A stretch of DNA of 64,000 nt. Origin: Dyella jiangningensis. Its GTDB lineage: Bacteria; Pseudomonadota; Gammaproteobacteria; Xanthomonadales; Rhodanobacteraceae. Position 1 is the stretch's first letter. Every line of letters begins with the position of its first letter. The translations under genes were made by a program, and so were the position numbers. The DNA lies in contig NZ_NFZS01000004.1 in NCBI RefSeq assembly GCF_003264855.1, positions 434,001 to 498,000 of the forward strand, given 5' to 3'. The notes under the pieces were generated by a model, which saw only the letters and a list, made by a program, of their open reading frames with translations, had not been told where the DNA came from and made no database searches. Positions 512 to 40,012 of the stretch are shown piece after piece.

Positions 512-1333
512 ATGCCTGCCCTGCTCCGCCGCCTGTGCATGCTCGCCCTCTGCGTGGCCCTGCCCCTGCGCGCCGCCGAGCTGACTGTCGACCTTGGCCA
601 TGGCGCGCGCACCTACCGCACGGAGCAGCTGCTGGCCCGCGGCGACGCCCGCACGATCGACATTCCCGACGATGTGTCGTTCAAGCGCGCCATGCGCTAC
701 CGCGCCGTGCCATTGAAGGCCTTGCTGCAGGGCGCGAGACCGGAGGATGCGCTGCTGTTCGTGGCCTCCGACGGCTTCGCCGCCGAGATCCCCGCCACGA
801 CGATCCTGCAGGCGCATGGCTCGGAAGCGTGGCTGGCTGTCGAAGAACCCGCCCGCCCGTGGCCGCCGCTCGCCGAGAACAAGGTTGCAGGCCCGTTCTA
901 CGTGGTGTGGACCGACCCGCAGGCCATGCGCATCGGGCCGGAACAGTGGCCGTTCCAGCTGGCCGCCATCCGTCGCCTCGCACCCGTGGCGGAACGCTTC
1001 CCGGGCATCGTGCCCGATCTGGCGCTGAAACCCGACGGAGCGGTCCGCAAGGGTTTTGCCGTGTTCCAGCGCACCTGCTTCGCCTGCCACACGCTCAACG
1101 GCCAGGGCGAAGCCCGGCTGGGCCCTGATCTCAACATTCCGCACAATCCCACCGAGTACCTGCGGGAAGACCTGCTCCGCGCCTACATCCGCGACCCGCA
1201 ATCGCTCAGGCACTGGCCGCAGGCGCGGATGCCGGGCTTCGACCGCCAGGCGCTTTCGGATGCGGAGCTCGATGAGCTGCTTGCCTACCTGCGCCATATG
1301 AGCGGGCGCAAAGCGCATCCCACATCGCCTTAA
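512..1333 (+). CDS. periplasmic c-type cytochrome with N-terminal molybdopterin-binding-like domain
   Basis: This is a 273-residue protein. An N-terminal signal peptide ends near residue 22 (cleavage around LRAA). Residues about 25-150 resemble the oxidoreductase molybdopterin-binding-like fold found in small periplasmic proteins, but that match is weak by eye. Residues 175-265 form a class I mono-haem cytochrome c with haem-binding CFACH at 189-193 and a probable distal methionine at Met240 (ARMPGF). It should carry electrons in the periplasm; the partner is unknown. I start at ATG 512 because longer frames upstream lack a signal peptide. The TAA stop (1331-1333) lies inside the left arm of the palindromic element that follows. 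Confidence 0.75.
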   Translation: MPALLRRLCMLALCVALPLRAAELTVDLGHGARTYRTEQLLARGDARTIDIPDDVSFKRAMRYRAVPLKALLQGARPEDALLFVASDGFAAEIPATTILQAHGSEAWLAVEEPARPWPPLAENKVAGPFYVVWTDPQAMRIGPEQWPFQLAAIRRLAPVAERFPGIVPDLALKPDGAVRKGFAVFQRTCFACHTLNGQGEARLGPDLNIPHNPTEYLREDLLRAYIRDPQSLRHWPQARMPGFDRQALSDAELDELLAYLRHMSGRKAHPTSP

Positions 1334-1692
1334 GGCAACACTGACTAAGTATTGCCGTCGTCATGATGTCTGGAAGGCTCGCCGGCTGTGTCGCGTGGCG
1401 CCGGGAAGACTGGCCGTCTTGCCAAGCCGCGCGGCACGGTAGGCGGGCCTTCCAGACATCACCCATCATTGAAAATTCAACCGGCTGGGCCCGCCCTGTC
1501 TGTCCGCACGCCTTCGGTCCGCTGGCTCGACAGACGGCCAGTCTGCCTTCCTCGCTCCTCAAGGCTGCGGCCATCCATGGCCGCTGCCCGCGTGCGCCAA
1601 CGGCCCTGTGGCCTGCGAACAGACGGGGCGGGTGACGACGCGAAGCTAGTCCCGTGGGACGACGGCAATACTTCGTCAGTGTTGCCTTAAGG
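1328..1692. mobile_element. nested-palindrome (MITE-like / structured RNA) element, copy 1
   Basis: Outer inverted repeats of 35 bp (1328-1362 and 1658-1692) match at 34 positions and begin with CCTTAAGGCAACACTGACTA. Inside are arm 1 (1365-1383 with 1442-1460, 18 of 19) and arm 2 (1490-1512 with 1610-1632, 20 of 23). Arm 2 encloses CAGAC/GTCTG (1530-1544) and the palindrome at 1567-1584. Within arm 1, 1386-1395 pairs with 1430-1439 using two G-U pairs, and the tip reads AAGA-CTGGCCG-TCTT followed by GCCAAGCCG. The stop codons of both flanking genes fall in the outer arms. No ORF inside is convincing. The same plan recurs at 38535-38802. Confidence 0.8.
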
Positions 1693-29204: not shown

Positions 29205-29296
29205 GGCAGGGTGCAGGCGGGCGAGGAGCGCAAAGTATAGCGGCGCCTCATAGCCTACCGAGCCATGACGTTCGGCCGATCATCCGCTAGCATGGC

Positions 29297-29372
29297 CGGC
29301 AGGGAGATGGCATGCCTCCCGCTCCGGCCTCGCGCACGGGGCAAACCACCCTCGGGTTGATGATGCCTGCAC
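29297..29372 (+). promoter_or_regulatory. fluoride riboswitch (crcB motif)
   Basis: The sequence GGGAGATGGCATGCCTCCC, a linker with AAACC, then TTGATGATGCCTGC matches the fluoride aptamer consensus. P1 pairs 29299-29303 with 29366-29370, and the second stem pairs GGGAG 29302-29306 with CTCCC 29316-29320 across the conserved ATGGCAT loop. It ends 87 nt before the crcB start. CAGGC-gcgt-GCCTG-TTT at 29392-29407 may be the expression-platform terminator that fluoride binding prevents. Confidence 0.9.
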
Positions 29373-29458
29373 CGCCGGGACTTCCGGGGCGCAGGCGCGT
29401 GCCTGTTTCCGCGAAGTCCTCGATACGTATGAAGTCCCCAAGACTCAAGGAGACGAAC

Positions 29459-38096: not shown

Positions 38097-38534
38097 ATGA
38101 GTCGCACCCGCTTCTACGCCATTGGCTTCACCATCCTGGTGCTGTTCGACACCCTGGTGCAGCTGAGCTTCAAGTACGCCGGCAACCATGCCTTCCCGCC
38201 CGAGGCGAACTGGGCGTGGATCGTGCGCGTGTTCGGTCATCCGTGGATCTACGTCGCGGTGATCGGCTACGTCGGCAACTTCTTCACCTGGATGACGCTG
38301 CTCAAGCACGCGCCCATCGGCCCGGCGTTCGCCGTCACGCATCTCGAAGTAGTCAGCGTGATGCTGTTCTCCGTGTGGCTGTTCCAGGAACCGCTGACGT
38401 GGCCGCGGGTGATCGGCGCCGCGACCATCGTCGCGGGCATCATCTGCCTCGCGTTCGCCGAAAGCAGCGCACACCCCGAGAACGACGCACCGACCGAAGC
38501 GAAGGGTGCGCTGGGCGTGACCGCGGGCGACTAG
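38097..38534 (+). CDS. EamA/SMR-like four-helix membrane protein, second of a pair
   Basis: This is a 145-residue protein with four membrane segments and the EamA-type end VTHLEVVSVMLFSVWLFQEPLTWPRVIGAATIVAGI, then a polar tail. With the gene before it this probably forms a heterodimeric transporter or flippase. The TAG stop (38532-38534) is followed at the very next base by the palindromic element at 38535. Confidence 0.8.
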   Translation: MSRTRFYAIGFTILVLFDTLVQLSFKYAGNHAFPPEANWAWIVRVFGHPWIYVAVIGYVGNFFTWMTLLKHAPIGPAFAVTHLEVVSVMLFSVWLFQEPLTWPRVIGAATIVAGIICLAFAESSAHPENDAPTEAKGALGVTAGD

Positions 38535-38802
38535 AGAGCCTGCCCCATGCCGTTCCATAGCCCGCGTTGCTCCAGTGAGACCCCCAGAGCGTGGTGGACG
38601 GCGCGGCGCCTGGCTGGCCGCCAGGTCAAGCCGTACGCCGTGCTATGGGGGTCTCACTGGAGCAACCCTTTGGGCCGGGTCTGTTTGCCCACAGGCCTGC
38701 GTCATCGTTCGATCGTGTATCGACATACACTCACTCTCTCTTCCTTGACCTGCGGGCAAACAGCTTCCGGCGCGGGCTATGGAACGGCATGGGGCAGGCT
38801 CT
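38535..38802. mobile_element. nested-palindrome (MITE-like / structured RNA) element, copy 2
   Basis: Perfect 32-bp outer inverted repeats (38535-38566 and 38771-38802) begin AGAGCCTGCCCCATGCCGTT. Arm 1 is a perfect 20-bp repeat (38567-38586 with 38646-38665). It is continued by a wobble-containing helix (38588-38598 with 38634-38644) and a tip CTGG-CTGGCCG-CCAG followed by GTCAAGCCG. Arm 2 (38681-38697 with 38747-38763) encloses GTGTAT-cgac-ATACAC (38715-38730) and a pyrimidine-rich run. It fills the gap between the EamA stop and the aminotransferase ATG exactly. Core and fold match the element at 1328-1692; the outer arms do not. Confidence 0.82.
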
Positions 38803-38803
38803 A

Positions 38804-40012
38804 ATGACCCGCGAGCTGCCGCCCACCGCTGGACTGCCGCTCCACCTGAACGACCTGTGGCCGGGCCAGGCACCGTTCGCCGAACGTGTGGCTGCCTGGC
38901 TGGGCGTGCCGCACCTGCAGCTCGAATGCTCCGGCACTGCCGCCATGGTGGTGGCGTTGCGCGCGATGCATCGCCTGCGTCCGCAACGCGATGAAGTGAT
39001 CGTGCCCGCGTGGACCTGCCCGCTGGTGGCTTTGGCCATCCATCGCGCCGGCCTGAAGCCGCGCCTGTGCGATCTCGCGGTGAACCATTTCGACATGGAC
39101 ATCGTGCAACTGGCCACCTTGGCGAATGCGAAGACGCTCGCCATCGTTCCCACCCATATTGCCGGTCGCGTGGCCGACGTGAACGCTTCGCTCGACATCG
39201 CGCACCGCGCGGGCGCCTACGTGCTGGAAGACGCGGCACAGGCGCTGGGTGCGCAGCAGGATGGCCGCAGCGTCGGCCTGCTGGGCGATGCGGGCTTCTT
39301 CAGCCTCGCCGTGGGCAAGGGTCTCACCCTGTTCGAGGGCGGCCTGCTGCTGACGCGTGACGTGGTGCTGCGCGATGCCTTCGGCGCGAGCCACGACGCC
39401 ACCATCAAACCCGACCGGCGCATGGACTGGCAACGGGCGCTGGAACTGATCGGCTACACGCTCGCCTATCGCCCTTCCCTGCTGCCGCTGGCCTACGGGC
39501 GTCCGCTGCGCAAGGCGCTGGCGGCGGGCGATCCGGTGGCGGCCGTCGGCGACGATTTCGGTCCGGACATACCGCTGCACACGGTCAGCCGCTGGCGGCA
39601 GGCGGTCGGCACGCGTGCATTGCGACGATTGCCGGCCTTCCTGGAAGCCACGCGGGCACAGGCTTTGCCGCGCGTATCGCGCCTGCGCCACATCGCCGGC
39701 ATCACGGCATTCGATGACGCGCCCGGCCAGCGCGGCGCGTGGCCGTTCCTGCTGCTGACGCTGCCCGACCAGGCCCAGCGCGACAAGGCGCTGCAGACGC
39801 TATGGACCGCCGGCCTCGGCGTCAGTCGCCTGTTCATCCACGCCCTGCCTGACTACGGCTACCTGCGCGACGTGGTTACCGACGCGCCGCTGCCGAACGC
39901 CCGCGATTTCGCTGCGCGCTCGCTGACCATCACCAACAGCCCATGGCTGGACGACGCCACCTTCGAGTCGATCTGTACCGTGCTGGAGCGCACCGTGAAG
40001 CCGTCGCGCTGA
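38804..40012 (+). CDS. DegT/DnrJ/EryC1/StrS-type PLP aminotransferase
   Basis: This is a 402-residue protein. Family motifs are CSGTAAMVVAL (phosphate binding), the WTCPLV loop, LEDAAQALGA with Asp143 contacting the PLP ring, and the Schiff-base lysine in FFSLAVGKGLTLFEGG (Lys172). Such enzymes aminate keto-sugars or related carbonyls on lipid or nucleotide carriers (compare ArnB). ATG 38804 follows the palindromic element by one base, so its promoter or translation signal must come from the element or from read-through. It is convergent with the CPBP gene. Confidence 0.82.
   Translation: MTRELPPTAGLPLHLNDLWPGQAPFAERVAAWLGVPHLQLECSGTAAMVVALRAMHRLRPQRDEVIVPAWTCPLVALAIHRAGLKPRLCDLAVNHFDMDIVQLATLANAKTLAIVPTHIAGRVADVNASLDIAHRAGAYVLEDAAQALGAQQDGRSVGLLGDAGFFSLAVGKGLTLFEGGLLLTRDVVLRDAFGASHDATIKPDRRMDWQRALELIGYTLAYRPSLLPLAYGRPLRKALAAGDPVAAVGDDFGPDIPLHTVSRWRQAVGTRALRRLPAFLEATRAQALPRVSRLRHIAGITAFDDAPGQRGAWPFLLLTLPDQAQRDKALQTLWTAGLGVSRLFIHALPDYGYLRDVVTDAPLPNARDFAARSLTITNSPWLDDATFESICTVLERTVKPSR

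Follow-up and report, generated by a model that had tools for sequence, protein, structure and literature searches.

Two nested palindromes and their neighbours

The window analysed here, 64,000 nucleotides of the Dyella jiangningensis genome (contig NZ_NFZS01000004.1), contains two elements built of nested inverted repeats. Copy 1 sits in a duplicated TTAA between the convergent genes of a cytochrome c domain protein (512-1333) and a putative aminopeptidase of family PF10023 (1687-2760, minus strand), the stop codons of both genes falling inside that duplication. Copy 2 directly follows the stop codon that closes an EamA-like gene (38097-38534), and a single base separates its right end from the start codon, ATG, of a DegT/DnrJ-type aminotransferase gene (38804-40012). 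Both fold far better than shuffled versions of themselves (copy 1, z -14.4 with 0/100 shuffles as good; copy 2, z -15.6 with 0/200), and their parts are given in Table 1.

A preliminary description of this DNA had reported a nested palindrome at 1328-1692 with a partner at 38535-38802, and both are present as described. The outer arms of copy 1 (1328-1362/1658-1692; 35 nt, 97% complementary), its arm 1 (1364-1399/1426-1461) and a repeat shared across its arms (1404-1419/1532-1547) were recovered, as were the matching parts of copy 2 (38535-38566/38771-38802, 32/32 pairs; 38566-38602/38630-38666). The extent of copy 1 has to be revised: its arms are real, but the sequence and the uninserted sites assign their outermost 6 bp to the target, CC-TTAA-GG, leaving 1334-1686 as the element proper.

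Table 1. Features of the two elements, in window coordinates
Feature	Position	Strand	Basis
Copy 1 (F1), left terminal inverted repeat / 5' strand of outer stem P1 (GGCAACACTGACTAAGTAT..)	1334..1362	+	arm 1328-1362; sister copies
Copy 1, right terminal inverted repeat / 3' strand of P1	1658..1686	+	arm 1658-1692
TTAA target copy left of copy 1, contains stop codon of upstream gene (1331-1333)	1330..1333	.	uninserted sites CCCTAAGG/CCCTAGGG in L341-L343
TTAA target copy right of copy 1, contains stop codon of convergent gene (1687-1689, minus)	1687..1690	.	sequence; uninserted sites
Copy 1, arm 1 (P2), hairpin, plus-strand sense	1364..1461	+	
Copy 1, P2 tip motif (..AAGAC UGGCC GUCUU GCCAAGCC..)	1398..1430	+	
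Copy 1, arm 2 (P4), contains first nested insert	1490..1632	-	
Copy 1, P4 tip motif as in P2 (..CAGAC UGGCC GUCUG UCGAGCC..)	1521..1553	-	
Nested insert in copy 1, other repeat family, 46 nt, hairpin GCGGCCATCCATGGCCGC	1551..1596	.	
Small palindromic nested insert in copy 1, 24 nt, hairpin GTCCCGTGGGAC	1641..1664	.	
Copy 2 (F2), left terminal inverted repeat / 5' strand of P1 (AGAGCCTG..)	38535..38566	+	
Copy 2, right terminal inverted repeat / 3' strand of P1	38771..38802	+	
Copy 2, arm 1 (P2), 101-nt hairpin, plus-strand sense, tip C-UGGCC-G then CAAGCC	38566..38666	+	
Copy 2, small hairpin P3 (CCC TTT GGG)	38666..38674	+	
Copy 2, arm 2 (P4), conserved inner hairpin 38715-38730, conserved loop sequence (minus: CAAGGAAG .. 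TGACGC)	38675..38770	-	

Copy 1 has been enlarged by the two later inserts of Table 1, both of which are missing in the sister copies L018-L021, L023 and L024 and present in L017. The longer one, nested in arm 2, belongs to a second and commoner repeat family (CTCGCTCCTCAAGGC..GCCATCCATGGC..CCCGCGTGCG), of which about 20 more partial copies occur in the same genome and many in genomes G017 and G007; at L040, sequence of this kind replaces arm 1. Fourteen stretches around this family (L043-L056) were left out of the analysis. The shorter palindromic insert (GCTAGTCCCGTGGGACGACG) stands in tandem in L022, and read on the minus strand it starts with CGTC followed by a palindrome, resembling the CGTC-tagged REPs outlined in excerpts of PMC3733652.

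Neither element matches an Rfam 15 family at the gathering score in a search of the whole window; copy 2 gives five matches, all below gathering, four of them to microRNA hairpins and the best with an E value of 0.00015. Elsewhere in the window, a fluoride riboswitch at 29294-29376 lies barely over its Rfam gathering score (34.3 vs 34).

Terminal repeats, insertion sites and spread

The two copies, taken at first for a two-member family, are part of a larger one. The window's own genome (4.76 Mb, seven contigs) has at least nine copies of the F1 type and at least 19 of the F2 type, which are lower bounds since 40 candidates were scored in each search; 13 of the 19 F2 copies are near full length (250-279 nt) and six are shorter (160-211 nt). 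F2 matches occur in 17 of 20 genomes of the genus. A covariance model of arm 1 (P2), built from 48 sequences, finds matches in 78 of 147 genomes of the bacterial family and in 20 of its 26 genera, with 27 candidates scored per genome and many genomes reaching that number; in a sample of the class, matches were found in 2/274 genomes, the window's own included. The named records that carry the tip, among the 80 of 107 stretches listed, come from Dyella, Rhodanobacter, Fulvimonas, Luteimonas, Xanthomonas, Pseudoxanthomonas, [Pseudomonas] boreopolis and one proteobacterial bin, the family being frequent in Dyella, Rhodanobacter and Fulvimonas and present in some Xanthomonas, Luteimonas and Pseudoxanthomonas. 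Such a covariance-model search of relatives had been proposed in the preliminary description, which would have been contradicted by a lack of further copies or by pairs drifting without compensation; the copies found are numerous and their pairs compensated. Copy 2 gave no match in a search for phage or plasmid homes.

The outer stem P1 is 29-37 bp long with 0-4 mismatches in all 60 genus copies examined, which were picked from among the long F2 matches. Its outer part (AGAGCCTG) and its inner part (CCCGCG) are conserved around a variable middle. The ends of insertion sequences (IS) in other genera that encode a PF13340 domain read AGAGCCTGTTCAAAGTCT(C), on both sides at L171 and with the right side one base off at L173 and L187, and the commonest F2 end, AGAGCCTGTTCAATGTCTC, is one base away from these. 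The outermost ends of L171 are flanked by TGA on either side. Among F2 copies, 18/74 carry the same TNA triplet on both sides, against 8.1 in shuffles (0/2000 reach 18), and in other genera 8/33 do so, against 2.8 (3/2000). The 3-bp TNA duplication is thus a mark of young F2 copies, and the proportion differs by genome, from 9/10 in G009 to 2/11 in G010 and 1/9 in G012; the triplets flanking copy 2 itself, AGA and TAA, are not identical.

Uninserted sites were found for both copies. The site of copy 2 is empty in 19/19 relatives, in which the genes on either side adjoin closely at a TGA stop codon, and the element is absent from the copy 1 site in all 18 alignable loci. One of the loci inspected, L344, proved to be the wrong locus for the copy 1 site; in its genome the flanks are about 54 bases apart. 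At L356 the site is occupied by about 320 bases of other sequence. At the orthologous site in G005 (L355), a lone F2 outer arm (AGCCTGTTCATGATCTCCGCGTGGCCCGCG) stands beside the stop codon, either a deletion remnant or the product of a one-ended event.

These observations show that P1 is a terminal inverted repeat and that both copies were inserted by an IS-like route. Transposon-like ends, target duplications and empty sites together therefore identify both copies as MITEs, and with the many copies and the strong covariation described below they bear out the earlier view of a mobile, structured element. That the outer arms of the two copies are unrelated, as had been noted, is also correct, because each pair belongs, as inverted repeats, to an IS-like system of its own. 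The elements have no coding capacity: at most 12 of 53 F2 copies of 268 nt are free of stops in any single frame, and a protein-coding reading was rejected as most copies have no open frame.

The mover appears not to be resident in most genomes of the genus, since no PF13340 domain was found in the 12 genus genomes searched and no DDE_Tnp_1 domain in 15 of 20, the window's own among them. Three other candidates were tried and rejected. No DUF772 transposase (PF05598) was found in the window's genome; among 20 loci examined for an autonomous IS of the F1 type, only end pairs 160-288 bases apart were present, and no IS was found for the F1 ends; and the presence of RAYT (PF01797) does not follow the copies, being absent from 8/17 genus genomes with F2 matches and present in G014 and G019, which have no F2 match. 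In another genus, the 3.5-Mb genome G035 combines 25 PF13340 matches, 34 F1-type end matches and many P2 matches, and is a promising genome in which to seek an active system.

Compensated pairing, strand preference and the tip motif

The interior was compared in two alignments, A1 with 48 rows (41 of the 74 F2 copies, near-copies being dropped by eye, and seven of the nine own F1 copies, without L020 and L022) and A2 with 41 F2 rows. Length is closely held, with 53/74 F2 copies exactly 268 nt (three truncated copies unmeasured). In P2, 34 of 40 pairs are changed on both sides, and 98.2% of cells are paired, compared with 71.6% after shuffling and 31-41% when slid. Six same-site comparisons between species give 54 double changes that keep pairing and one that breaks it, where both-sides changes of any kind expected by chance sum to about 14.5; the 54 are not 54 events because the six comparisons share members, and one same-site pair, L110 and L125, is less alike than its own flanks and could be a replacement. 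Single changes at these sites were kept as G-U in 20 cases and broke the pair in 25. It is thus shown that the two interior hairpin arms change in sequence yet stay paired, also between same-site copies in different species. The elements diverge as fast as or faster than the flanking DNA at most of these sites.

Compensation alone could have another origin, and such a reading was considered here: a neutral MITE with functionless arms, in which pairing is restored by arm-to-arm DNA correction (template switching in quasi-palindromes) and variant masters spread again. The rapid divergence just described accords with it, as do the lack of a resident transposase and of any visible host use and the mismatches of P1, which are balanced between A-C (72) and G-T (32) apart from one fixed A.C site that accounts for 44 of the former. 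Correction and neutral drift predict no strand preference, yet P2 has one, and its U-G pairs, 1x1 mismatches and tip loops are kept and not corrected to Watson-Crick; moreover the tip is common to elements with unrelated ends. We regard this reading as unlikely and already weakened.

The strand preference of P2 had been noticed in the preliminary description as G-U pairs readable only on the plus strand, and it holds across the family. Counted over pairs with a Watson-Crick majority, taken from folds of either strand, the plus strand has 75 G-U against 9 A-C cells; an earlier count of the lower 21 pairs, made without folding, gave 36:7. U-G is the commonest state at alignment pairs 27/76 (27/48) and 34/69 (36/48), and the consensus energy is -88.3 on the plus strand and -59.1 on the minus. 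A ratio of 137:2 in 40 copies from other genera was set aside, these being the top of a structure-model search that rewards G-U over A-C and the full 101-nt length; the set, as assigned, also includes G021, G055 and G153, which correspond to records named Dyella. It was replaced by counts in copies found by the exact tip pattern, which lies outside the counted pairs (80/107 stretches covered). These give 57:15 for 29 copies from non-Dyella records and 30:12 for 39 copies from Dyella records, after 1/30 and 2/41 distinct copies, respectively, were dropped for forming fewer than 70% of the outer pairs.

For arm 2, P4, the same description had found mismatches that do not favour the plus strand. 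In the genus the bias is barely towards the minus strand (27:20, that is, A-C 27 and G-U 20 as read on the plus strand), but the arm is not neutral everywhere: in other genera the minus strand is favoured, with 40 A-C against 7 G-U on the plus strand in 33 copies, which are those of the 40 with a full outer stem and were not selected on P4. A first count of 63:14 is superseded by the genus figure, its pairs having been folded on the favoured strand, where the new rule is strand-symmetric. In the genus the plus and minus strands of P4 have energies of -25.7 and -42.0, in other genera of -20.5 and -41.4. A strand-specific constraint on P2 is thereby shown: on these counts P1 behaves like DNA ends and P2 like a plus-strand hairpin; P4 behaves, less firmly, like a minus-strand hairpin.

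The F1 tip, AGAC-UGGCY-GUCU in a 3x2 internal loop closed by GGC/GCC, occurs in P2 on the plus strand and again in P4 on the minus strand, so that each arm shows it when read from its own end inward. Under a strict pattern, 11 of 17 F1-type copies have both tips, four have one and two have none; of the ten additional F1-type loci whose ends pair, eight contributed to this count, after two with end spacings of 160 and 173 bases were dropped. In nine of the 17 (nine of the 11 with two tips) the tips are equidistant from both ends, from 65/65 to 69/69, while in copy 1 (W1) and L017 one tip is shifted by the nested inserts. A possible kissing-loop joining the tips of F1 is not used as evidence, because complementary loops follow from the inverted duplication. 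F2 has a shorter motif, CAGG.CRAG, at 88 on the plus strand and 51 on the minus (46/107 copies with length 268), so its arms are not mirror images. A third kind, F3, comes from G325, a genome of another bacterial family with six P2-model matches (loci L400, L402 and L404): L402 and L404 have outer arms AGGGAAGCTCTGCA.AACCTGTCGCGG, an F2-like P2 tip and the P4 stretches CAAGGAAG and TGACGC, and L400 is more diverged. The ends of F1, F2 and F3 are unrelated and their interiors alike; one kind of interior therefore rides on at least three pairs of ends.

Possible roles and relation to known systems

The best reading of the data is that these are MITEs with a pair of opposed hairpins under selection as RNA or single-stranded DNA, the function being inferred. 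In the form that we tentatively favour, both arms would work as hairpins of RNA, in transcripts that run into the element from one side or the other. The elements would have been moved in trans by a transposase of the IS5 type that is no longer resident; P2 would act in transcripts from the left and P4 in those from the right, so that with one arm per direction the element could work in either landing orientation. Folded stably right behind the neighbouring gene's stop codon, the arms might protect or process the 3' end of its message. In 55/86 cases a gene that points inward has its stop codon between -15 and +10 nt relative to the element. Several results count against the RNA-hairpin reading: the weak minus-strand bias of P4 in the genus and F2 arms that do not mirror each other; the lack of a resident mover and of an IS for F1 ends; the AGA and TAA flanks of copy 2 and the few identical triplets in G010 and G012; and, at copy 2, the lack of any promoter or intrinsic terminator pattern.

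The neighbouring genes offer a check on how the strand preference arises. Of 121 copies, 85 were classifiable from gene directions assigned by a codon-usage script, itself checked in-sample only (36/36 pieces); both genes run along the element in 36, both opposite in 28, and they are convergent in 11 and divergent in 10, which is no clear bias in orientation (36 vs 28; 21 vs 10 in a stricter earlier count). The P2 ratio is 31:5 where the upstream gene reads into P2 (26 copies) and 25:5 where it does not (23 copies), copies forming fewer than 32/40 pairs and three fixed wobble positions having been dropped. A strand bias set by the upstream gene of each copy is thus unsupported. This equality argues against a constraint acting through the present neighbour and keeps single-stranded DNA in play; the constraint may stem from master copies that are active, or from a role in which neighbours play no part.

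The earlier suggestion that the element possibly acts as RNA accordingly stands in that arm 1 is a strand-specific hairpin, and does not stand as a choice of RNA over single-stranded DNA, which these data do not separate. G-T pairs beat A-C in DNA hairpins too, and U-G as the commonest state of a pair, as at P2 pairs 27/76 and 34/69, is more typical of RNA. On the DNA reading, the arms would be hairpins of single-stranded DNA to which a strand-specific enzyme or host protein binds, in the way that RAYT transposases bind REP hairpins, within a giant REPIN-like unit that also gained IS ends. Besides the indifference of the strand bias to gene direction, two opposed imperfect hairpins, one per strand, are the pattern of REP pairs in the portions of PMC2817692 that treat them. 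That RAYT does not track the elements, and that they have target duplications and DDE-type ends, speaks against it, as do those U-G pairs, and we consider it rather unlikely. A bidirectional transcription terminator, stopping transcription from either side, would suit stable folds on both strands at the 3' ends of genes but is improbable, given that copy 2 has no T-run after a stem and splits a gene pair tightly spaced in relatives, and that 64/85 classifiable copies lie between same-direction genes and only 11 between convergent ones.

It is possible, if somewhat doubtful, that the family is a two-headed mobile nucleic-acid device, in which one hairpin unit was duplicated in inverted form, each unit is selected as RNA (or single-stranded DNA) read from its end inward, and the whole persists by swapping unrelated transposon ends, at least three (F1, F2, F3), its arms also being recognised by some factor.

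As a MITE, the element is of a known kind. MITEs are generally regarded as transposons in decay whose hairpins are incidental. In this family the interior has been preserved, covaries at most of its pairs, shows opposite strand preferences in its two arms and is common to elements with unrelated ends, which opens to direct test whether a selfish element harbours a functional RNA and what such an RNA does once it has landed in an operon. We take the IS5-type group with PF13340 to be IS1031-like, with a TNA target; F2 shares with it the terminal sequence, bar one base, and the 3-bp TNA duplication, but has no transposase gene and an unrelated interior. To our knowledge, opposed strand-biased arms and the exchange of ends have not been described for bacterial MITEs, and no paper was recognised as describing this family among open-access listings and the starts of abstracts.

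With REP pairs, BIMEs and REPINs, which go with RAYT transposases, the elements share two inverted imperfect palindromes, one per strand, and many intergenic copies, as far as the relevant portions of PMC2817692 describe them. The opposed orientation of the two units, seen in the F1 tips and in the strand biases, is likewise REP-like. The arms here are about 100 nt long, whereas REP palindromes have 20-40, target duplications are present and RAYT presence is uncoupled; no GTAG/CGTC tag of REPs was seen at the arms on inspection of the copies. Also among the closest known kinds are the folding bacterial MITEs, such as NEMIS, ERIC, YPAL, RUP, Bcr1 and Nezha, which in the sections of PMC3733652 devoted to them have 70-300 bp, terminal inverted repeats of 15-30 bp, no coding capacity, positions adjoining genes and a stable structure, all as here. 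Compared by description only, the present family differs from these in a conserved multi-arm interior on at least three unrelated pairs of ends, in hypervariable stems that are compensated and in arms that prefer opposite strands. The two copies of the window thus belong to a gene-less jumping DNA element, in dozens of copies in related soil bacteria, whose hairpins vary in their letters and keep their pairing, in the manner of a working RNA (or single-stranded DNA).
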